The position numbers and the translations under genes were made by a program. From a virus, in the IMG/VR virus record IMGVR_UViG_3300009285_001158, positions 1 through 26,116 of that record: a DNA stretch of 26,116 nt; one strand, written 5' to 3'. How positions within the stretch are numbered: position 1 is the stretch's first letter; each line of letters starts with the position of its first letter. The notes below the pieces were generated by a model. The model worked only from the letters and a program-made list of their open reading frames with translations. It had not been told where the DNA came from and did not search any database. This document shows positions 3,626 through 24,737 of the stretch, piece by piece.

Positions 3626-3793
3626 TTATGCTCCTCTAGACTTCTTTTTCTTCAGTAGGGCCACCAAGTCATCCTCTGGTGATCCCATTTTAGGAATGCG
3701 GTTCTTGATTTTCTTTGGGGGCTTCTTGAGAAACTTGCCCAGAAGAATTGGCGTAAAAGACGGAGATAAACGATCGGACAGGTGTTTGGACAT
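3626..3793 (-). CDS. Small lysine-rich protein, 55 residues
   Basis: The ATG at 3791-3793 overlaps the TAA of the hub C-terminal ORF by one base (TAATG), and the stop lies one base before the next gene. This tight fit supports it as a real gene despite its size. The protein has 13 Lys and 4 Arg, including GKFLKKPPKKIKNRIPK at residues 19-35 and LLKKKKS near the end, giving a strong positive charge. No family is recognised. It may bind DNA or other virion proteins at the tail tip. Confidence 0.65.
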   Translation of the reverse strand: MSKHLSDRLSPSFTPILLGKFLKKPPKKIKNRIPKMGSPEDDLVALLKKKKSRGA

Positions 3794-4836
3794 TAGAGTG
3801 CCAACCTTGTCGTCTGACCCAGCTCTGAATAGCCGGGGATACCCAGCCGCCAGGCGATGGCCGACCCTTCCGTCTGTTTGACATACAAGGAAACCTCCAG
3901 GGTGTCCTTGTCCCGTGCCAGGCAGGCCAGCCCATTCACAAAGAAGGACTCGTTGACCCCAGTTTGGGCCTCCGCCAGGGTAATCAGGTCTCCGGGCTCC
4001 AGGGCAAGGGCCTGCTTGAACACGGTGCTGTTGGGATCAGCTATGAACTTCAGAACCTCAATACGGGTATCAGGAGCACTGACCCGAGAGATGAGCCAAT
4101 CCGCAAACAGGGTGGCGAAGGCCGGATCGGATTCATAGGCCATATCCCAGTCCAGGACGTTGAGCCCGTAGGTCCTACGAGAATCTGCGTCTGCCGAGAT
4201 GCTATCCACGGGCTGGTATCTCTTTATGCGCTTCCCCTTCAGTTGGAACTTCGTGATATAACATTTAGCCGTCGTCGGATTGTGAAAAGTGGCCCCAGTA
4301 CCGCTGGCCCCGATTGTCAGATCCAGTACCACCTTGTCGCCCGCCGAGCCCATGTCGTATATATTGAGGATGTCGGATGCGGGCAATACGACGTTCCAAA
4401 GTACCACGTGACCCATCTCGTGGTTTGCAGGACCCAGAGTTACCTCAAACGGATTGGGGACGGATGTAGGCCAGTCGCAAATGTCGCTGACCGTCGTAAT
4501 GTTGGTCCCATTCAGGTAGTAATGAACCTGGTTATCCGTGCTGCCCCACGTAACCGCCACATTCTGAAGGTTGGTGCTGAAGAAGTCTGTAGCCGTAATG
4601 GTCCCCGTGTTGCTGGATGTGCCATAGGAAATCACCAAGGCGTCCGGCTTGGCATTGTCGGCGGCGGGGATGTAGACATCCAGCGCGTAAATACCGTCCG
4701 AGCCGTACTCCGCCTTGACGTGGAAGAGGTTGTAGGGATAGGGTTCGACATTGTAGCGATCGGAACTGATGGGCTTCACCCACAGGGAGAGAGTTCCTTC
4801 CGCCCCACTGAAATCAGTCGTAAGTGGATTAGTCAT
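3793..4836 (-). CDS. Tail hub C-terminal part with LamG-like half domain (in frame with the upstream ORF)
   Basis: This 347-residue ORF begins at ATG 4834-4836, two codons after the TGA that ends the large hub ORF and in the same frame. Residues 1-161 look like the later strands of a LamG/concanavalin-like lectin fold (GTLSLWVKP at 14-22, VAVTWGSTDNQVHYYLNG at 93-110, MGHVVLWNVVLPASDI at 141-156). The earlier strands of that fold lie before the TGA. Residues 168-322 resemble the C-terminal domain of siphovirus tail hub proteins (FQLKGKRI, YGLNVLDWDMAY, LEPGDLITLAEAQ). GGTGAT lies 5 bases above the ATG, so separate initiation is possible; readthrough would give one chain of about 1,748 residues. 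Confidence 0.7.
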   Translation of the reverse strand: MTNPLTTDFSGAEGTLSLWVKPISSDRYNVEPYPYNLFHVKAEYGSDGIYALDVYIPAADNAKPDALVISYGTSSNTGTITATDFFSTNLQNVAVTWGSTDNQVHYYLNGTNITTVSDICDWPTSVPNPFEVTLGPANHEMGHVVLWNVVLPASDILNIYDMGSAGDKVVLDLTIGASGTGATFHNPTTAKCYITKFQLKGKRIKRYQPVDSISADADSRRTYGLNVLDWDMAYESDPAFATLFADWLISRVSAPDTRIEVLKFIADPNSTVFKQALALEPGDLITLAEAQTGVNESFFVNGLACLARDKDTLEVSLYVKQTEGSAIAWRLGIPGYSELGQTTRLAL

Positions 4837-4845
4837 GTCCCATCA
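4837..4845 (-). other. In-frame TGA between two halves of the hub (possible readthrough or reinitiation site)
   Basis: Codons on the minus strand are CGG TGA TGG GAC ATG, with TGA at 4843-4845. Both flanking ORFs are in one frame, and a LamG-like domain plus the hub fold continue across the stop. Other genes here use TGA as a normal stop, so it is not a general Trp codon. Options are programmed readthrough, reinitiation at the ATG two codons on, a recent nonsense mutation, or an assembly error. Confidence 0.7.
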
Positions 4846-7800
4846 CCGTGTAGATTTGATGCCCGTAGATATTTTCGTTGGGGGCTTCAGATACGTCTTC
4901 TCGCTCCCGATAAACGTACTTACGCCCGTGACCCCCAATGACCCAGAAGCCCGCGGCGCATTGCTCTGTGCGGCATCACCCGCAGGCTGAAGCTCGTCTC
5001 GCAGAGCGATCGTCTCCGTATTCAAAAGCGTCCAGTAGCCAATAAGGTTGTCCGATGATGTAACCAGAATAGTCTCCCGGACATCTTCAGTCACATCCGA
5101 CCCGCCGGCTGTGCCGGTATGAACCTCGTAATCGACATTGCGAACCGGAGCCTTGACATCAATGGCCCCAATCACCTCATAGGCCAGGTCTACGTCTAGG
5201 TATTCGGCATACATGTAGAAGGTCCCGTTAGGGGGTATCTCGGGAATGCTGTCCGTATCCAAGGCGTAGATGACCTCATCCGCCGCATCAATCGATTGAG
5301 GATGGGCCGTAATGCGAACGAGGTTATATATCTTCGGCAAGGATTGGACGACCGATAGTTTGGTCATGTAGTCGCTGGAATTCGTGTCACTCAAGGACAT
5401 TACCGCACTTGGTAGAACTTGGCGGGCAGTGCGGTCATCGAATACGAAGGTCTCCCCTCGATCCCCATCAGAGGTCGCCCCGCCTCGGGTGTAGATATAT
5501 CCAGGCTCCGAGCGGGCAATTCGATTGAGTTCCCCCATCATCAAGGTTCCGGCATTAGACTCATCCACAGAGTAAACGAAGGAGTTGGCTCCCACATCAA
5601 TCTCGTTATCCTGTGGCCAAATGTCGGAGTAATCCAGAATGGCTCGGATGACCGTGCCCGAGAGCTGTTCGTTCTGTACTGGCACAGGTCCGATGGGGTA
5701 TTGGCCCGCCTTGCCCATCCAGTCGTGGGCCGATATCTCGACCGTCTTAGGTCCTGCAATGTCTGGATTGGGTTGGATATTGGTCAAATCACCAACGAAC
5801 TTGGTGAACTCATCGGCATTCGACGTGTTGACCCCATCCTCTAGGGTGATGGCGGTGGATGCCACTGTGGCCCCCAACTGCCAGTAAAAATCTGGGGGTC
5901 CGCTGGATAGGGTGTACAGCACGTCCTTCTGGAACTCGTTGCGGGTTGTGATGGCAGCTACTTCCTCGGCGGTTAGAGCCCTGTTGAAGATCCCCAGGTG
6001 TCCAAGGGAGCCAAGGAAGCAGGGGACCGCTTGGCTGTAGCAAGTCAGGATCTCCTGGTCAAAGTCGGTGCCCGAATAGTTCGGACAAGAAGAGTTACCC
6101 AACAACGCCCCGTCTAGATAGACTGAGATGCTGGTCCCCGGATCGACCGACACCACGACATGGAACCAGTCGGTGCTGGTGCCGACGGGGAACTTGGTCA
6201 GGAGCGTATCGGTCCCAACCGTAACGGCAGCCTCGATGGATCGGATTGTGTCGGTACTGTGGGCCGAGAGATTGACCCGGAGTTCGTCGGTGCCGTAGAA
6301 CGAATCGAAGTCGAACAGTTCGACATAGGTCGTGTCGGAGGATACACCCCCATCTGTACCAAATACCCAGGTCTCATTGTCGGCCACCTGGAACCACAGA
6401 TTGAGCGAGAAGTCCCCGCCCTTGTAGATAGCCGTGTTGGAGGTGCCCCCATCCGAGGTATACCGATAGTAGATACCGGAAGGGGTGCGATCCGTCGAGA
6501 GGGGATGGTAGAGCCCGTCTGCCAGACTGAAGTTCGTGTATCCGATAAAGGATGCATCGGTGTCCTGGTAGTAGCCAAGAATCATCCCATCAGCGTAATT
6601 GTCTGAGCCGTAGTCTGTGCCGTCGGATGACCACCCAGCATCGGTGCTCCAACTCCAATCAAACCCGTCACTATCGAGAACGTCGGATGTGGCGCTGTAG
6701 TCCGTTGCGTACTGCTTCCCGTCCGAAAGATAGGAGTTGTCGGTGGCATAGGTCCACGTGAACCCGTCACTATCATACCCGTCGTCCGTACAATAGGTAG
6801 CGACGAGACGCCCTAGATCGGTATTGTATCCAGCGTCGCTAGCGTAGGTCCAGGTGAACCCATCAGAATCGAAACCAGAGTTGGTGCAGTAGGTTGCAGG
6901 GCTGACACTGACCCCATCGCTATCAAACCCATTATCTGTGGCATATAATGTATAGGACGTGGAAAAGTAGTCGTCAGTGGCATATATGAAACCGTCGCTA
7001 TTGTATCCGGCGTCTGTGGCCACAGCAAACAAGTCCAGAATATTGGACGAGGTTACATCAGAGCCGTAACGGATACCGCCACCAACATTCGTAGCCAGAC
7101 CAAAGTTGGATGCATAGAGCAAGGTGATATCTGTCGATTCGAGAACGTCCACAAAGTCGGTAGCATCGTTGTCGCCCCCCCATATCTTATCTATGTTGGA
7201 TGACACACCCACATTGGACGCGGTGATGCCATCGGTAGCAAAGTCGGAAGCCAATTCAAATGCATTGGTGGTGGTAAGATACTTGTAACCCTCGACTTTG
7301 AAGAAGTAATCCTTCCCCCCACTCTCCGTCGATGTGGTTCTGGTAGCAGCATTTAGAAACGCAATGCCTGGGTAAGCGTTTGTGCCCGTCCCTTGAATGT
7401 TGATTCCATCAGTCCCCGGAGCATTGACATACATCTCCCAGATATAAGGCACGTTAGATGTAAGAGAGATTTGGTTGGCCCCAGTGAAGCCGAAGGTCCA
7501 GTAAGAGAAGTTAGTCGTTAGTGTATCCGTACCAAGAACATTTACTGAGACAGCTAGCTGTGCTCCTCGGGATGAGTCGGTTGCTCCATAGGTTCCGCTA
7601 TGAGCATAAACAAAGATGTTATAAGTCCCCGCCTCGCTCACGGTCGTAGGATACATAACACCCCACGCCGTAATTTGGCTTAGACGGTAGGTATCGGAGG
7701 CGTTGCGGAAGGATTCTCCGTAAAAAAGAGCACTTGTCGGCGTGTCTCCAAAGAGAACGTCTGTGGCGACCCCCGCCAACTGAGTGTAAACCGTCAGGTC

Positions 7801-9039
7801 TGTTGACCAGGTTTCGCTGGCCCACCCGCATGCCGCAGGTAGGTCAGAGGAGTTGGTCCAAATAGTATCGGAGGCCGCCACGAGGTCAGTAGCCACATCA
7901 TAGTCAGGAACATCAGATGCCTGTGCCCCATAATCGGATGCATAGATGTTGCTCGCCCAGCCAAGATGCGCGGGCAGGTCGCTGGATACCGCCCAGTAGT
8001 CGGAGGTTTGGAAAACGTAATAGGTCTCCCAGACGACATCAAAGTAGTCAACGAAGTTCGATGAGTTGTACCAATCTGAACCCATCCCTAGCGCGTTTGT
8101 TGATTCGATCTCATCCGAATCAACGCTCCATAGGTCCGTGGCGTGCCGATCAAGATCGTCACCATAACCGTAATCAGTAGCCCAGACTAGACCATCACTT
8201 CCATAACCAGAATCCGTACCCGACAAAAACACTTCGCCGGATGTATTGGTTGTAAATCCACCGTCGGTCGCGATTGCATTGCTGTTCCAGTCGGATGTTC
8301 CCTGTCCATTACTATCAAAGAAACCCCCACCATAGAAATCTGTCGCAAAGACTATATACTCATTCACCTCCCATACCCCGTCACTGTCATATCCGTCGTC
8401 TGTCGCGTAGGTCCAGGTGAAACCGTTGCTGTCAAAGCCGCTATCCGTACAATAGGTCGCAGCGTCCGATGAGCGCCAGCCGTTATCAGACGTGTATCCA
8501 TTATCCGTCGCATAGGTCCACGTAAAGCCATTCGAATCGTAGCCATCGTCACTACAATAGGTCGCCGGGTCTGACGATCTCCAGTTATTGTCGGACGTAT
8601 AGCCATTGTTCGTCGCCCAAATGAAACCATTGGAATCATAGCCGAGGTCGGTAGCGTAGACATCGTGCGCCCTGAAGAGGTCGCTGTCATAACCAAAGTT
8701 TGTGGCGTAGGCCGTCACATCCGAGCCATAGGTCTCCTGGAGCGACACCCACAGGATCTCGTAATTGCTATCGAGCAGGTCGCCCTCATAAGCGATCTTG
8801 ATGCGGTTCGACATGCCAAACCCGGCCCTACAGGAGGCATTGTCGGGGGAATACTGGCCCGTCCGATTGTTTAGGACCAAGGAGAGTACCCCACTCCCCG
8901 CAATGCGCTCATCAACATCATTGGACAGGATGCCGTAGTTCCATCGGATGCCGGGGCGCGCCAAAACGTCGCTGGTGATGTCTACCCATCCAGGGGTTCC
9001 GTCCGTCGTCAAATCAAGGTAGACGTGCGGAAGGTACAT
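4843..9039 (-). CDS. Giant tail hub/receptor-binding protein with Ser/Thr-Asp repeats, carbohydrate-binding-like and LamG-like insertions
   Basis: This 1398-residue protein follows the tape measure by one base of overlap. Residues 1-100 resemble the N-terminus of siphovirus hub proteins (GWVDITSDVLARPG, VLSLVLNNRTGQYSPDN). The matching hub continuation (FVGDLTNIQPNPDIAGPKTV, AHDWMGKAG) appears only at 1080-1330, so about 970 residues are inserted. The insert holds: a Ser/Thr-Asp/Asn-rich repeat zone (105-430); a beta-sandwich like carbohydrate-binding modules (about 430-587: GESF, SQITAWGVMYP, GTYNIFVYAHSG); a second Ser/Thr-Asp zone (596-815); and a LamG-like lectin domain (about 830-1032: FSLNLWFQV, WFHVVVSVDPGTSISVYLDG, LGIFNRALTAEEV). 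A second LamG-like domain starts at 1330 (LIGYWTLLN) and is cut by the TGA. The hub lies at the tail tip and the insertions probably bind host surface sugars. Confidence 0.8.
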   Translation of the reverse strand: MYLPHVYLDLTTDGTPGWVDITSDVLARPGIRWNYGILSNDVDERIAGSGVLSLVLNNRTGQYSPDNASCRAGFGMSNRIKIAYEGDLLDSNYEILWVSLQETYGSDVTAYATNFGYDSDLFRAHDVYATDLGYDSNGFIWATNNGYTSDNNWRSSDPATYCSDDGYDSNGFTWTYATDNGYTSDNGWRSSDAATYCTDSGFDSNGFTWTYATDDGYDSDGVWEVNEYIVFATDFYGGGFFDSNGQGTSDWNSNAIATDGGFTTNTSGEVFLSGTDSGYGSDGLVWATDYGYGDDLDRHATDLWSVDSDEIESTNALGMGSDWYNSSNFVDYFDVVWETYYVFQTSDYWAVSSDLPAHLGWASNIYASDYGAQASDVPDYDVATDLVAASDTIWTNSSDLPAACGWASETWSTDLTVYTQLAGVATDVLFGDTPTSALFYGESFRNASDTYRLSQITAWGVMYPTTVSEAGTYNIFVYAHSGTYGATDSSRGAQLAVSVNVLGTDTLTTNFSYWTFGFTGANQISLTSNVPYIWEMYVNAPGTDGINIQGTGTNAYPGIAFLNAATRTTSTESGGKDYFFKVEGYKYLTTTNAFELASDFATDGITASNVGVSSNIDKIWGGDNDATDFVDVLESTDITLLYASNFGLATNVGGGIRYGSDVTSSNILDLFAVATDAGYNSDGFIYATDDYFSTSYTLYATDNGFDSDGVSVSPATYCTNSGFDSDGFTWTYASDAGYNTDLGRLVATYCTDDGYDSDGFTWTYATDNSYLSDGKQYATDYSATSDVLDSDGFDWSWSTDAGWSSDGTDYGSDNYADGMILGYYQDTDASFIGYTNFSLADGLYHPLSTDRTPSGIYYRYTSDGGTSNTAIYKGGDFSLNLWFQVADNETWVFGTDGGVSSDTTYVELFDFDSFYGTDELRVNLSAHSTDTIRSIEAAVTVGTDTLLTKFPVGTSTDWFHVVVSVDPGTSISVYLDGALLGNSSCPNYSGTDFDQEILTCYSQAVPCFLGSLGHLGIFNRALTAEEVAAITTRNEFQKDVLYTLSSGPPDFYWQLGATVASTAITLEDGVNTSNADEFTKFVGDLTNIQPNPDIAGPKTVEISAHDWMGKAGQYPIGPVPVQNEQLSGTVIRAILDYSDIWPQDNEIDVGANSFVYSVDESNAGTLMMGELNRIARSEPGYIYTRGGATSDGDRGETFVFDDRTARQVLPSAVMSLSDTNSSDYMTKLSVVQSLPKIYNLVRITAHPQSIDAADEVIYALDTDSIPEIPPNGTFYMYAEYLDVDLAYEVIGAIDVKAPVRNVDYEVHTGTAGGSDVTEDVRETILVTSSDNLIGYWTLLNTETIALRDELQPAGDAAQSNAPRASGSLGVTGVSTFIGSEKTYLKPPTKISTGIKSTR
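6649..6945 (-). repeat. Repeat block B in the hub: three degenerate 32-34-residue units
   Basis: Residues 699-731, 732-763 and 764-797 align to the units of block A. Each starts Y-A-T/S-D, two contain ATYCT, and each ends in a DSDGF-type turn followed by an aromatic stretch (FTWT, FTWT, FDWSW). Block B lies on the other side of the beta-sandwich from block A. Confidence 0.75.
8410..8619 (-). repeat. Repeat block A in the hub: two adjacent 35-residue units
   Basis: Residues 141-175 and 176-210 are adjacent units identical at 28 of 35 positions (NGYTSDN, WRSSD, ATYC, DSNGFTWT). Their DNA differs at many third positions, so the duplication is old and the peptide is being conserved. Confidence 0.85.
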
Positions 9040-10607
9040 TACCGCCTCTTAGCCATAACGTCTCGGAGAGCCGTCGGGAGGCTACGAACTAGCCAGTGGA
9101 TATCGTCTCGGATCGCTCGCATGTCCTCCCCGGACCCGCCCCCACCTGCGCCTGCCGAATACCCAACGCCGGGGATAGACCCCGCCATAGCTGCCTGTGG
9201 TAGGCCAGACGACCCAGAGATGCCCTGAGCCATGCCCAGCATCATGTTCCGCCCAATCTCGGAAAAGAGTGTCGACGGAGAGTGGATACCCAGAACGGTC
9301 TTGGCTGCCCACCATGCGCCGGAGGCGGCTGCCACCACGACGTCAATCAAATCCTGCGCATGAGCTTGGACCCCCGAGATGATTCCCTGGATAATCCCCC
9401 AACCCACCTGGAACCAGTCCGTCGCAACAATTGCCTCTGCGATCTCCACCATCCATTCCCTGAACATACGGTATATGCCTTCAAAGATTGTGCGCAAGTC
9501 ATCGGGCAGGTGTTGAAGGTTTGTTATGAAGGCATCCCGAAATCCCCCGATGTTGAATGCCAGGGCTATAATGAGTCCAAGCAAGGCCGCCAGAGGAAGG
9601 GCCAAGATGAACACGGGGACAGCAAGAGCGCCGAGGGCTACCGCAATTGATGAAATCACGAAGGCAGCCCCGATAAGGCCCGCTACTATCAATAGGCCGA
9701 CACCAAGTCCCTTCAAAAACCCGAGAACTAGTTGACCTCGCTCACTTCTTGCCCAGTCCCCAAATCGTTCTAGGGTATTCAAGAAATTCTCAACAGTCGT
9801 TCGCATCTCGGGGCCAAGAGATTTGAGAATTTGGGCACGAACGGTCTCCCAGTCGCCGCCCAACATGGCCCGCACAATCACCACAAACCTGCCGGCATTT
9901 CTCTCCAGCCACGTTCCCAAATTGGAGAAGAACTCCTCTAAGGCTGGGGCATTCTCCTGGATGATTCGGGTAAAGCCCTCCATCACCGTCGATAAGGCGG
10001 GCATGAACGCATTGGCGATAACCATCCGAACGCCTAGAAATGAATCGTGCAGATTGTCCAGCGCTCCGTAGTATCGAAGGACAGCAGCCCGGTTCTCGTC
10101 AGTAACGATCAGCCCCCGATCCAGGCCCCGCACATAGGCCGCCAAGCCTTCCTCTCCCAGGTCCATGATACGAGCCATGTCGGTCCCCGAGCGTCCGAAG
10201 TTCTCCATCAAGAAGGTCGCCCGTTCAGTCGGATCGGTGAGAAGAGCGTATCGCCTGGCAAGTAGTTGAAGTCCCTCGACGGTAGGAGCAATCCCCCGCC
10301 GAGCCATAGTACGAAGAGCCATCGTTAGGCCATTGGCCTCGATGCGATTGTCGTCCGCCAGGTTATAGAGAATACTGGCCTCTTCGGACGTGATGCTAAA
10401 CGCCTGGGCCAAGTCGTTGATCGCCAGGGTGTAATCAACCGTCTGTCGAATTGATTCGCCTATTTGCCGTGCCAGCAAAACGCCTAATGCAACGGTTGCA
10501 GCCGTTATGGCTACCCCCAAAGCAAGAGCCCCCATCCGTAGGCTGCGAAACATGCCGGATAGGTTATCCTGGCCCTCGAATATGACTCGAACCCTCTCAT
10601 CAACCAT
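9039..10607 (-). CDS. Tape measure protein
   Basis: The 522-residue protein starts with ATG overlapping the end of the chaperone fusion ORF by 8 bases. It sets tail length and is threaded through the tail tube. Hydrophobic segments occur at about 23-50 and 296-355. The C-terminal VLGIHSPSTLFSEIG (438-452) followed by MMLGMAQGI is the characteristic tape-measure signature. The rest is helical. At about 1.5 angstrom per residue, 522 residues predicts a tail of roughly 80 nm, short for a siphovirus. No separate Dit-like gene lies between it and the hub; the hub follows directly. Confidence 0.9.
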   Translation of the reverse strand: MVDERVRVIFEGQDNLSGMFRSLRMGALALGVAITAATVALGVLLARQIGESIRQTVDYTLAINDLAQAFSITSEEASILYNLADDNRIEANGLTMALRTMARRGIAPTVEGLQLLARRYALLTDPTERATFLMENFGRSGTDMARIMDLGEEGLAAYVRGLDRGLIVTDENRAAVLRYYGALDNLHDSFLGVRMVIANAFMPALSTVMEGFTRIIQENAPALEEFFSNLGTWLERNAGRFVVIVRAMLGGDWETVRAQILKSLGPEMRTTVENFLNTLERFGDWARSERGQLVLGFLKGLGVGLLIVAGLIGAAFVISSIAVALGALAVPVFILALPLAALLGLIIALAFNIGGFRDAFITNLQHLPDDLRTIFEGIYRMFREWMVEIAEAIVATDWFQVGWGIIQGIISGVQAHAQDLIDVVVAAASGAWWAAKTVLGIHSPSTLFSEIGRNMMLGMAQGISGSSGLPQAAMAGSIPGVGYSAGAGGGGSGEDMRAIRDDIHWLVRSLPTALRDVMAKRR

Positions 10608-20944: not shown

Positions 20945-21250
20945 CTAGCCTAAGAAATCCCCCTCACTCTCGTCAAAAGAAACGAAATCGAAGGTACTCT
21001 CGATATTGGGCCGATCCCGCCCCAAGTCTCTCCTACGATTCTGCTCTGCCTGCTTCAAGAACCTGGCCCAGCTAGGCCAGCTACGAAGACTCTGGCCTAG
21101 GCCGTGCGCCTTACGACAGCCGAGACATGCCCACGACCGGCAACTGACGATCCTCCCGCAGATCGAGCAGCACTCACTAACCACTATATCCCTGACATCT
21201 AGACTTTCAGAAACGCCTGTCAAGGGGAGAAATCCATCCGTATCACTCAT
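20945..21250 (-). CDS. Cysteine-rich putative zinc-binding protein, 101 residues
   Basis: The ATG at 21248-21250 overlaps the methyltransferase stop (ATGA). Residues 27-45 hold six cysteines (CCSICG, then a Cys, then ACLGC), enough for a zinc ribbon with extra ligands. The rest is basic (RFLKQAEQNRRRDLGRDRP), then acidic at the C-terminus (FDESEGDF). No family is recognised. It is the last gene of the accessory cassette, before the intergenic gap. Confidence 0.6.
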   Translation of the reverse strand: MSDTDGFLPLTGVSESLDVRDIVVSECCSICGRIVSCRSWACLGCRKAHGLGQSLRSWPSWARFLKQAEQNRRRDLGRDRPNIESTFDFVSFDESEGDFLG

Positions 21251-21999
21251 CGCCTCACCCCTAACGCCTGGAAGGACAACCCACGATTGATTACCGCAAC
21301 ATCGACTGGTATCCACCCACTATGAATCAGGAGGCTCGGGAATAGCTTGGGGTCCCAAACTGTCATGTGGAAAGGAGCCCAGGCCCCCTCCGCTATTGGG
21401 GCCGGTACTTCGAATAGGATGGCCCCCTTGGACTCGACCCTTTGGCCCATCTCCTCCATGAACTCGACCGGGTTCGTCAGATGCTCTATGACATGGGTCA
21501 AGATAACGAGATCGAACTTGCCGGGGGCGGCCTCCAAGGTGCCATACACCCGAATATCCCGCCCTTGAGCAATCTTCTTGTCTAGATCGTTGAGTTCGAC
21601 CCCCACAACCTCACACCTGTACTCGGCCCGTAACTCATCCAGTATGACCCCACTGGCGCACCCATAGTCCAGCGCCCGGCGCACCTTCTGGACACCATGC
21701 CCCTTGAGGTAGTCGATGCTTCGCTCTGCCCGCTGAAGTTGAATAACCCGATCGTGCAGCGTTGGATAGGCAGGATCTCGATAATCCTGGGCATAGTAGC
21801 CCTGGATGAACTCGGGGCTGGGAACTCGGGGCCGATAGATAAGCCCGCACGCCTGGCAGAGAACCCAGTTTGGCGGCTCCTCCCGAGCAACGGCCGCCGA
21901 TACAGGAGCCTTGCAAAGAGGGCACCTCTCGACGGGGAGAGTCGATGCGGCCGCTATCAGCTCCCCACGCTCAATTACATCCACCTCACCAGTCCTCAA
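21247..21999 (-). CDS. Class I SAM-dependent methyltransferase with N-terminal zinc ribbon
   Basis: The 250-residue ORF begins with TTG at 21997-21999 inside the preceding gene; a GTG 15 bases on is an alternative, and neither has a strong ribosome-binding site. Residues 26-51 form a Cys4 ribbon (CPLC, CQAC). DYGCASG (111-117) is motif I, VVGVELND the acidic loop, and FDLVILTHVIEHL motif IV with the DLVILTHV pattern of Methyltransf_23-type enzymes. Family members commonly methylate sugars, quinones or small metabolites, and zinc-ribbon forms are frequent in nucleotide-sugar clusters. Beside a cytidylyltransferase and a glycosyltransferase-like gene, methylation of a surface sugar is plausible. 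The substrate is inferred. Confidence 0.8.
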   Translation of the reverse strand: MRTGEVDVIERGELIAAASTLPVERCPLCKAPVSAAVAREEPPNWVLCQACGLIYRPRVPSPEFIQGYYAQDYRDPAYPTLHDRVIQLQRAERSIDYLKGHGVQKVRRALDYGCASGVILDELRAEYRCEVVGVELNDLDKKIAQGRDIRVYGTLEAAPGKFDLVILTHVIEHLTNPVEFMEEMGQRVESKGAILFEVPAPIAEGAWAPFHMTVWDPKLFPSLLIHSGWIPVDVAVINRGLSFQALGVRR

Positions 22000-22693
22000 G
22001 ACGACCAGTTTCGAAGATCGTGCATTCGGTAGGATTCGACAGATTCACAATTCTCTTTTTGGCCTTGTCAAATTCCGCCTTAGCAATTGCTAGTATCCCA
22101 TCCGTATTGCGCCTCCAGGCCGCCGGGGTGTAAGGACCAGGCGCTACCTCAAACAGCGAAGCATAACCCTCGTCATCCTTGTAGAAGTGCTTCTGCTTGT
22201 CCTCGGGAGGTGGATACTTGTGATCCATCCCAACAATCAGGATTGGATCGAAGCCGAGCCAAAGGGCCATCTGAAGGATCGGATAGACCATCGTGTAGCC
22301 AATCCCGACACTGAAGTACGGCGTCTTGCTCCAAGTCTTGAGCCGATCTCCCGATACCCCATAGGCCTTGCCTCCCATCCATGTATAGCATTTGTTTGTG
22401 AAGGCGAACTCGTGGATCATCAGCCTGTTGATCCATGCCGCCTCACAGCGATCATCCAAAATGACTGGAAGGATCGTCGCCCGCTTCTCCGGAGTGTCAA
22501 GTTGGTTAGCTCCCATACCAAAGTAGAAGGTCGGGCAAAACGCCGGGTAAAGCATCGTTATTCGATTGCACCCCAGCGTCGGATACTTCTGAAGAAACTC
22601 CAGCGGAACATTTGCTAGGCCCGGCCCATTACAAATCAAGGTAGCAGTCTGGCCCTGGTAACTGCCCTTGAGAGCGGCGTTAGATTTCAGCAT
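21986..22693 (-). CDS. Putative glycosyltransferase-like protein (GT42 / MptE-DUF115-like fold)
   Basis: The 235-residue protein is read from the ATG at 22691-22693, with GGAG 6 bases upstream; in-frame ATGs at 22705 and 22711 lie inside the preceding gene. ATLICNGPGLANVP (17-30), GCNR (41-44) and the helix plus strand VYPILQMALWLGFDPILIVGMDHKY (136-160) follow the layout of the CMP-binding fold shared by GT42 sialyltransferases, Maf flagellin glycosyltransferases and MptE-like proteins: a GNGPSL-type loop, a later Cys-Asn pair, and a G-D motif after a helix. CstII-type enzymes use CMP-sialic acid, and a CMP-sialic-acid-synthetase-like gene lies two genes upstream. Transferase activity is not shown; the catalytic His was not assigned. 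Confidence 0.55.
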   Translation of the reverse strand: MLKSNAALKGSYQGQTATLICNGPGLANVPLEFLQKYPTLGCNRITMLYPAFCPTFYFGMGANQLDTPEKRATILPVILDDRCEAAWINRLMIHEFAFTNKCYTWMGGKAYGVSGDRLKTWSKTPYFSVGIGYTMVYPILQMALWLGFDPILIVGMDHKYPPPEDKQKHFYKDDEGYASLFEVAPGPYTPAAWRRNTDGILAIAKAEFDKAKKRIVNLSNPTECTIFETGRLEDW

Positions 22694-23864
22694 CGGCTTC
22701 TCCATAAACATCTGCCTCGACGATGGTGATTTGATTGTCCTGGGTGGCGTTCGCTAGCTCCTCAAGCTCCTTGCGAGCATCGGCCTCGAACCCCGCCAAA
22801 CTTACGGCCCGCCTAGTGCCCGTTGCGTCCACATAACCAAGCTCGGAAATCGCGGCGTGCATCCGAACCTCGTTGTGGTTGCGCCGGGCTTGCTGAAGTG
22901 CCCCGAAGATCGAGTTGATTTCCGAAATCTTGGCAAACTCATCACCAACAAGTTTGCCCATCTCACCCTGCATCTTCGCCATGCCATCCTTTGACAGGCC
23001 CTGCGTTACCTTGGCCCGATTTTGGAGTTCTACCTTCCGTCCCCGAATCAGATTCAACTCGCCCTGCGCCTTATCAAACGCCTTTGCCAGAGCGTTGACC
23101 TGAATCTCCATATGCATAGAAGTCAGCCCCGGAACCTTCTCGAACCCATACAACTGCTCACGATCCCCAAGCATCGTGCAGCCCGGCGGTAGATAGAACT
23201 CGACGCCCTTCCCAATACAAATCCCAGCCCAGAAGTTGGCATTTGGTTTTTGGTCCTGATATTCCGTTTTGCTGCTCATTTCCCATCCGTAGCCCTCGAT
23301 CCGCTTGGCCCCGAGATGAAGAGCCAAGGCAACCATGACGCCAAAGCTGTTGGTGAAGTAGCGGACGTTGGCAGCATTGACACCAAAGGACCCAACGATT
23401 TCATCCAGCGGGTAGGCGACCGCCCCAGGGATATCGACCTCCTGGTTGACGGTGTAGATGGGAAACGGGTAATCCATCTCGAAGCGCCGATGAACAGCCG
23501 GGTCGTATTCCCCCGTGCCCGCACACTCCGTGCAAACCTTGTCCCCCGCCTTACCGTTCCCGTGACAGACGAAGCAATCGCCCTTGACAGCCTTCATCCA
23601 CAAAGGATGATTTGGATGATTGAAGTTGCCTTCCCGAAGAAAATCCCAGCGGGGGTGGATCTGGAACCATCGGTCCCAACGCCGTAGATAGGGCTTCTTC
23701 TCCTCGTCCTTCTTGACACCCTTCGTGTGTCGAGGATGGTAACTCTCGTTCAACGACCAGATTTCCACACCAGGAATATCATACGGCGCGAGATGACGAC
23801 TCGATTCGGCCATCCCGACCAGCACGATGGTCTCACTACGAAGTTTCCAAGGATCAAGTGGCAT
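22680..23864 (-). CDS. Rossmann-like protein with inserted DnaJ-type zinc finger and C-terminal coiled coil
   Basis: The 394-residue protein is read from ATG 23862-23864, with GGGAGG 5 bases upstream; a longer reading (ATG at 23948) overlaps the previous gene heavily. The N-terminal ETIVLVGMAESSRHLAPYD (11-29) and the later YFTNSFGVMVALALHLGAKR (169-188) and GYGWEMSSKTEY (191-202) match a common uncharacterised phage Rossmann-like family with an IGLYGVDM-type motif. Between these halves lies CFVCHGNG (97-104) and CTECAGTG (111-118), a DnaJ-type CxxCxGxG pair that looks like an insertion. Residues 255-350 are helical and charged. Function is unknown; distant relation to DUF115/GT42-type folds is possible. 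Confidence 0.6.
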   Translation of the reverse strand: MPLDPWKLRSETIVLVGMAESSRHLAPYDIPGVEIWSLNESYHPRHTKGVKKDEEKKPYLRRWDRWFQIHPRWDFLREGNFNHPNHPLWMKAVKGDCFVCHGNGKAGDKVCTECAGTGEYDPAVHRRFEMDYPFPIYTVNQEVDIPGAVAYPLDEIVGSFGVNAANVRYFTNSFGVMVALALHLGAKRIEGYGWEMSSKTEYQDQKPNANFWAGICIGKGVEFYLPPGCTMLGDREQLYGFEKVPGLTSMHMEIQVNALAKAFDKAQGELNLIRGRKVELQNRAKVTQGLSKDGMAKMQGEMGKLVGDEFAKISEINSIFGALQQARRNHNEVRMHAAISELGYVDATGTRRAVSLAGFEADARKELEELANATQDNQITIVEADVYGEADAEI

Positions 23865-24060
23865 TTTCGCCTCCCACTTCTTTAGCCTGCCGGCACACCC
23901 AACACTTTGACCATAAAGGATTCGGGCTTCGTCCAACCACGAGTTCATACGGCATAAGCCTTAGCTGCCAATCGTGATGACAGGTCTTGCAACGAACCGC
24001 CACCTTGATTTGTTGCACCTCTAACCCGTTCGCTTCCAAAAACTCAATTACGCTGTTCAT
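23854..24060 (-). CDS. Small Cys4 zinc-finger protein, 68 residues
   Basis: The ATG at 24058-24060 overlaps the stop of the cytidylyltransferase (ATGA). Two CxxC pairs, CKTC (24-27) and CWVC (53-56), form a zinc ribbon with a 25-residue spacer. Residues 1-12 (NSVIEFLEANG) are helical. The gene overlaps the following gene by 11 bases. It may bind nucleic acid or act as a partner of the adjacent enzymes; no family is recognised. Confidence 0.65.
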   Translation of the reverse strand: MNSVIEFLEANGLEVQQIKVAVRCKTCHHDWQLRLMPYELVVGRSPNPLWSKCWVCRQAKEVGGENAT

Positions 24061-24737
24061 AGGTCCAATCCTTCCGCATAGGTCCAATCCTCGGGCGTAT
24101 CCAGGTCGATCGCATACTTGCGCGGGATCGTGTAGGGTAGGACTTTCTTCCCAGACATCGATCCCCCCGCCACCACATCCCCCCGCACGGCATCAACGCA
24201 ACCTACGTGCCACAGAACCTCAGGCAGCATTTGCCTGGGCATGTTGTATGCCTCGGGAATGTCAGGCAGATGAAGTAGGGGCTTGATGTATTCCCCATCC
24301 CGAAGCCAGAACTTGGCTGGGGGATGGGGGCTTTCAACAACCGTCCGAATGCTGTCAGCCCCGCCTAACACGCCCAAATCGAACAACATCTCGTCTACCA
24401 GATTCCAAGGCCGGATCGGGCAGGTCGGGCGGAGATGCACAAGATAGGCCGGGACCCTGCCCAGATACTCCAACGCGTGCTGAAAGACCCCCAGGTCTGG
24501 AGAAAGGTCTTGAGCCAACTCCATCGGGCGATAGATGACCTGCGCACCATAACTCCTAGAGATTGATGCGATCTCGTCGTCCTCCGTCGAAACATAGACG
24601 CAATCAATTCCGATACACCGATTGGCGTACTCAATGGACCAAACTAACAAAGGCTTCCCCCGGAACAACTTGATGTTCTTACGAGGTATTCCCTTCGAGC
24701 CGCCACGGGCCGGGATCAGAGCCACCACTTTATCCAT
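24057..24737 (-). CDS. neuA-like: CMP-N-acylneuraminate (nonulosonate) cytidylyltransferase
   Basis: The 226-residue protein starts with ATG in a TAATG junction with the exonuclease gene. VVALIPARGGSKGIPRKN (4-21) is the CTP-binding signature of NeuA/KdsB-type enzymes. VYVSTEDDEIA, HLRPTCPIR (the QPTSPLR-type motif), ADSIRTV and a C-terminal AIDLDTPEDW (210-219) complete the pattern. It joins CTP and a nonulosonic acid such as sialic, legionaminic or pseudaminic acid to give the CMP-sugar. No sugar-building genes (NeuB, NeuC) lie in the window, so the acid would come from the host. The 226-residue length is normal. This is the anchor of the proposed sugar module. Confidence 0.85.
   Translation of the reverse strand: MDKVVALIPARGGSKGIPRKNIKLFRGKPLLVWSIEYANRCIGIDCVYVSTEDDEIASISRSYGAQVIYRPMELAQDLSPDLGVFQHALEYLGRVPAYLVHLRPTCPIRPWNLVDEMLFDLGVLGGADSIRTVVESPHPPAKFWLRDGEYIKPLLHLPDIPEAYNMPRQMLPEVLWHVGCVDAVRGDVVAGGSMSGKKVLPYTIPRKYAIDLDTPEDWTYAEGLDL

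Follow-up and report, generated by a model that had tools for sequence, protein, structure and literature searches.

What is the function of nearly 1,000 residues, many of them arranged in a short acidic repeat, that interrupt a single hairpin of a phage tail protein? The question is raised by the window analysed here, a stretch of 26,116 bases that makes up an entire IMG/VR virus record (IMGVR_UViG_3300009285_001158). A first-pass annotation had described, in what it called the hub of this phage, two zones of regularly spaced Ser/Thr-Asp or Ser/Thr-Asn pairs ([ST][DN] below) flanking a carbohydrate-binding-like domain, and had suggested a new solenoid or stalk that projects a receptor-binding domain.

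Assignment of the repeat-bearing protein

Genes on the minus strand run in the order terminase, portal, capsid, adaptor, tail tube, tape measure and then the open reading frame in question, which spans 4843..9039, encodes 1,398 aa and directly abuts the tape-measure gene upstream of it (9039..10607, minus strand; phrog_58, E 1.4e-17). The full-length protein has no family match in Pfam or PHROG family searches. A match to phrog_5313 (E 6.8e-5) covers its first 104 residues, and the N part also matches the gene that follows the tape measure in the Streptomyces phages Cumberbatch and phiSASD1. With an alignment of N parts of the phrog_5313 and Streptomyces phage type we collected 53 hub relatives from viral contigs; a second scan returned no relative closer than those from the first. 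The N-terminal part of the window hub is 38% identical to relative L021 and 37% identical to L022, L025 and L027, the last being the hub of IMGVR_UViG_3300014914_000068 (at 6986-10042).

The N and C parts of the window hub match the same proteins, both in L025 (E 1e-10 and 3e-16) and in L027 (2e-10 and 7e-19). The fold was matched on a model of L025 rather than on the window protein itself. This model, built with 10 relatives (pLDDT 70.3, pTM 0.67), resembles the hub of phi812 over about 300 residues (9eug_E, Z 22.1), a baseplate chain of Agrobacterium phage Milano (Z 20.7), Mu gp44 (Z 18-19; 18.3 for 1wru) and T4 gp27 (1k28_D, 18.1). Because both ends of the protein match the same relatives, and the model of one of these folds like tail hubs, we regard as firm its assignment as the tail hub of a siphophage-type virus, with a predicted gp27/gp44/VgrG fold. 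The original description of the carrier as a hub is thus borne out, both by the relative's fold and by the position of the gene directly after the tape measure.

The reading frame ends at an in-frame TGA (4843..4845, minus strand) that splits the hub gene and, within it, a second LamG-like domain (LamG2); the L027 gene is a single uninterrupted frame. The rest of LamG2 and the hub C-terminus follow in the same frame at 3793..4836 (minus strand, 347 aa), and their product is 28% identical to the C-terminus of L027 (E 1e-20). Readthrough, a real split, a mutation and an assembly error are all possible origins of this TGA. Recoding is unlikely, since several other genes here end in TGA, some of them with another stop 2-8 codons on.

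A single insertion site in the hub

Comparison with the relatives places the N-terminal part of the hub core at aa 1-86 (8782..9039, minus strand), ending at the hairpin turn that bears the insertion. The core resumes at aa 1078-1398 (4846..5808, minus strand; 30% identity to L027, 235 aa, E 2e-20), a stretch that then runs into the start of LamG2. The alignment to L025 breaks off at residue 109 on the N side and picks up again at 112 on the C side (in the numbering of that alignment), equivalent to aa 86 and 1078 of the window hub, and in the L025 model the insertion site is the D95-G96 turn of a beta hairpin formed by strands 87-94 and 97-112. This turn comprises 2-3 residues in plain relatives, as against about 990 aa in the window hub, where it is filled, in order, by zone 1, a middle domain, zone 2 and a first LamG domain (LamG1); LamG2 occupies a second hub loop.

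The middle domain (aa 431-595; 7255..7749, minus strand) is the one that had been called carbohydrate-binding-like, a designation we could not sustain: searches of Pfam, PHROGs and PDB sequences gave no significant match, whether to lectins, to carbohydrate-binding modules (CBMs) or to any other entry. The nameable lectin-type domain is instead LamG1, which follows zone 2 (aa 868-1028; 5956..6438, minus strand) and has a predicted ConA-like lectin/glucanase fold. Its match to PF13385 (Laminin_G_3; E 1.4e-12) scores 48.4 bits, above the gathering cut-off of 27.6, while the partial LamG2 lies just under that cut-off (E 6e-6, 26.9 bits).

In L027 the same hairpin turn holds a LamG-like insert of roughly 240 aa, and another such insert lies in a later loop, as in the window hub. 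The entry into the insert is also common to the two hubs, which have YGSDVT (window hub, aa 104-109; 8713..8730, minus strand) and YGADVT (L027) in the same loop; L027 is the only one of the 53 hubs with this peptide. YGSDVT recurs in the window hub at aa 658, inside zone 2. The simplest history that we infer is one in which an L027-like LamG loop gained repeats beside the entry peptide, and duplication of a zone then enclosed the middle domain on both sides. Since one insertion site can be compared across hubs that are plain (L025), LamG-decorated (L027) and decorated with 990 aa (window), the growth of such arms becomes testable.

Two zones of a short acidic repeat

Zone 1 (aa 105-430; 7750..8727) and zone 2 (aa 596-815; 6595..7254), both on the minus strand, contain far more [ST][DN] pairs than expected from their composition. 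The counts are 42 in zone 1 against 15.1 expected (5,000 shuffles, highest 27) and 30 in zone 2 against 12.0 (highest 23), so that both zones lie above every shuffle, and 30 of the pairs in zone 1 are [ST]D, in line with the original figure of about 30. The pairs are part of a fuller element, [FYW]-x-[ST]-[DN], found 23 times in zone 1 (2.7 expected) and 19 times in zone 2 (1.9 expected), and nine times per zone one copy follows another at a tandem step of 6 or 7 residues (18 in total, 0.0 expected). The earlier estimate was a pair about every 7 residues; the spacings observed are not uniform at 7 but fall at 6/7 and 13/15, and the repeat does not extend evenly over the whole zones, being densest at aa 104-290 and 640-815 and looser at aa 290-430. 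The turns that had been noticed recur as described, with four copies of ATYC and nine of D-x-[DN]-G in the protein.

The most similar neighbouring units, aa 145-179 and 180-214, are identical at 30/35 residues, rather than the 28/35 first counted, and at only 12/35 codons, which upholds the claim that adjacent units are alike despite differing codons; unit identity in shuffles of zone 1 reaches at most 11/35. The two zones are themselves related (107 aa ungapped, 36 identical). Synonymous and non-synonymous change between units, a comparison the first-pass annotation had proposed, gives dN of 0.26-0.79 and dS that is near saturation, either above 2 or inestimable for that reason, and Tandem Repeats Finder reports only a 23-base two-copy row in the repeat region. 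The repeats thus go back to old duplications that selection has maintained at the protein level, and are not a recent DNA repeat. A DNA-level or codon-pair artefact is ruled out by the mixed Ser/Thr codons before Asp and by the near-saturated synonymous sites.

Both zones are strongly acidic, with net charges of -50 (zone 1) and -33 (zone 2), Lys and Arg together amounting to 1.2% and 1.8% of residues, and Asp predominating over Glu (47 vs 7 and 36 vs 1; 83 vs 8 over both zones). They are high in Asp, Gly and Ser, contain few Pro, Glu and Lys residues, and have aromatic contents of 17.8% and 15.9%. Genome-wide acidity of the kind seen in halophiles is not supported, since this record's portal and terminase are ordinary (pI 5.3 and 5.6).

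The statement that the repeat belongs to no named family agrees with our searches, in which it had no relative in Pfam, PHROGs or PDB (profile search to E 10) or in phage and plasmid records. DNA patterns derived from the repeat, which required near-exact words, returned from viral contigs either nothing or 13 matches without repeats, and the four matches to the repeat pattern in species genomes were three ORFs without the repeat and one 14-codon frame. The HMM-type check suggested earlier gave the same result: the repeat profile, which recovers its own record at E 1.8e-54 as a positive control, found no relative in 396 + 398 genomes of two phyla (794) or in 22 hub-relative records, and the collections may have left out records near the window. 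Decorated tail-tip proteins are known; the putative repeat arm is new among the collections searched.

A hub-wide preference and upstream sugar genes

Outside the zones the window hub has 49 [ST][DN] pairs, compared with 29.0 in shuffles (z 4.4), and the L027 hub, which has no tandem zones, has 49 compared with 31.0 (z 3.9). The preference in L021 has a z of 2.1, and the median across hubs longer than 350 aa is 0.0. Outside the zones it is [ST]D and [ST]N that are enriched, and not [ST]E or [ST]Q. This milder preference in the non-repeat parts of the hub and in L027 means that part of the [ST][DN] signal is not arm-specific. When the window hub and L027 are aligned, 3/23 and 4/13 of the [ST][DN] sites fall at common positions. 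Proteins at the tape-measure and tail-tube positions of the L027 record also lean to [ST][DN], with z about 2.

Upstream of the terminase gene, 24057-24737 (minus strand) encodes a homologue of PseF-like CMP-sugar (pseudaminic acid type) cytidylyltransferases, which matches TIGR03584 over its full length at E 3.8e-32, below the curated cut-off. It has one match only in the phage collection, a 34% identical protein annotated as CMP-sialic acid synthetase. Beside it, 21247-23948 (minus strand) encodes a methyltransferase, an MptE-like protein and a third protein, 422 aa long, that has a CxxC zinc-finger-like segment, and these genes possibly form a sugar-modification set together with the PseF-like gene. 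Weak N-terminal cytidylyltransferase matches are also present in L091 and L092 (frames of 395 and 347 aa), which come from records G007 and G013, the sources of hubs L029 and L036.

Proposed ordered arms and their alternatives

The explanation that we prefer as a whole, and to which we give about an even chance of being correct, is that the zones are ordered, cation-neutralised beta arms on the hub that display putative glycan-binding domains. Zones, middle domain and LamG1 share one hub hairpin, and the insert is expected to lie outside the hub channel, since nearly 1,000 residues per subunit are too many to fit inside; by analogy, the hub would be trimeric. Each zone would be an ordered chain of short beta steps made of an aromatic residue, a Ser/Thr and an Asp/Asn(-Gly) turn. 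Order rather than disorder is suggested by the 16-18% of aromatics, the strict phase, the 30/35 unit identity and a dN of 0.26-0.79 beside a dS above 2 or saturated. An AF2 prediction of the zone 1 core, with the internal repeats as a five-row alignment, has a pLDDT of 39.6 and stays below 50 throughout, which neither shows nor excludes a fold; so shallow an alignment is a sufficient cause of low values.

Ca2+ or Mg2+ would probably neutralise and stiffen the zones, given that these are almost without positive residues. Against the model counts that the hub protein contains no canonical Ca2+ motif of the GGxGxD or DxDxDG type. Paired arms of this kind may hold the middle domain and LamG1 off the tail tip for contact with host-surface glycans, a display role suggested by the fact that LamG1 adjoins zone 2, and a stalk or solenoid projecting a binding domain, as first proposed, is plausible because the entire block is inserted in one hub hairpin. 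More tentatively, and as a possibility we think doubtful in its full detail, the zones may represent a new solenoid class, an acidic, cation-stiffened beta-coil in which each coil takes up about 13 residues and two aromatic-x-[ST]-[DN] steps. It would have grown from the YG[SA]DVT loop (as in L027) and, by duplication, come to flank a new domain, giving a cation-dependent hub arm.

It is also conceivable, if unlikely, that the zones themselves bind, with exposed ladders of aromatic, Asp and Ser/Thr residues gripping a repetitive host polysaccharide. The 42 [FYW]-x-[ST]-[DN] elements over both zones offer these residues at fixed spacings, a chemistry that fits stacking against sugars and hydrogen bonding to them, and a lectin-type domain is adjacent; however, Pfam, PHROGs and PDB gave no homologous family of polysaccharide-binding proteins or depolymerases, and zones so negatively charged would be ill suited to acidic capsules.

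Quite unlikely, in our estimation, is the idea that the pairs are modification sites at which a phage or host enzyme attaches sugars to Ser/Thr, coating the tail tip with glycans. The preference for [ST][DN] outside the zones and in L027, mostly at differing positions, is what a local sequence signal would produce, and the phage encodes the PseF-like homologue, the MptE-like protein and the methyltransferase upstream of its terminase. We know of no [ST]D sequon, and such a sequon would not need an aromatic residue at -2 or a 6/7 phase. The sugar genes may target the host surface or other things, and the hubs L029 and L036, whose records have cytidylyltransferase-like matches, show no preference (5 pairs vs 8.2 and 10 vs 9.1). 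The hub-wide tendency nevertheless keeps a modification signal in play, and is a main reason why we put the arm model no higher than we do.

That the zones are flexible, disordered acidic linkers merely separating domains is less likely still, since their Asp, Gly and Ser content and low AF2 pLDDT would fit such linkers but their many aromatics, few Pro, Glu and Lys residues, exact phase and strong unit conservation despite synonymous saturation would not, and the shallow alignment suffices to explain the pLDDT.

If the repeat instead folds into ordered arms in the way set out above, it would constitute a new acidic beta repeat with a short period, of interest to structure prediction and protein design.

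Comparison with known systems

The zones were compared with several known repeats. RTX beta-rolls likewise consist of acidic Asp-turn repeats in tandem, but these are GGxGxDxUx nonapeptides, whereas the step here is 6/7 residues with an aromatic at a fixed place; with no GGxGxD in the protein and no PF00353 match, we rejected this family. Calcium loops like those of thrombospondin type 3 or dockerin were rejected for lack of DxDxDG, only nine D-S-[DN]-G turns being present, and SD-repeat (Sdr) or serine-rich stalks because the pairs are spaced 6-7 residues apart with aromatics, and do not form contiguous SD or S-x-S runs. The beta-gamma-crystallin motif [ND][ND]xx[ST]S occurs at aa 144, 151 and 179 only, with no Pfam match.

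As a carrier, the window hub has in common with gp27, gp44, VgrG and the N-terminal hubs of siphophage Tal proteins the core fold (through its relative) and the position after the tape measure. It differs from them in the ~990 aa placed in one hairpin and in the second LamG insertion. A second group is formed by the phrog_5313 hubs with LamG-like domains, Cumberbatch gp18 (42% identity to the N part over 50 aa) and phiSASD1 gp38, which lie directly after the tape measure, have the same N-terminal hub part and carry an extra domain after the same region. In these hubs the extra domain begins directly after the hub strand, without [ST]D zones. The best whole-hub relative is L027, with LamG domains in the same two loops, the YG[AS]DVT entry and the hub-wide [ST][DN] preference, but without repeat zones, middle domain or break in its reading frame.

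In its way of working, the proposed arrangement resembles the evolved Dit of lactococcal 936 phages, where a CBM inserted into a conserved tail-tip protein promotes host binding (PMC6669499). The carrier there is Dit rather than the hub, and it is without repeat arms; as another tail protein, evolved Dit supports the way of working and not membership of a family. The insert most likely helps the tail to reach and hold the host surface; loop decorations on tail-tip proteins help decide which hosts a phage can hold.
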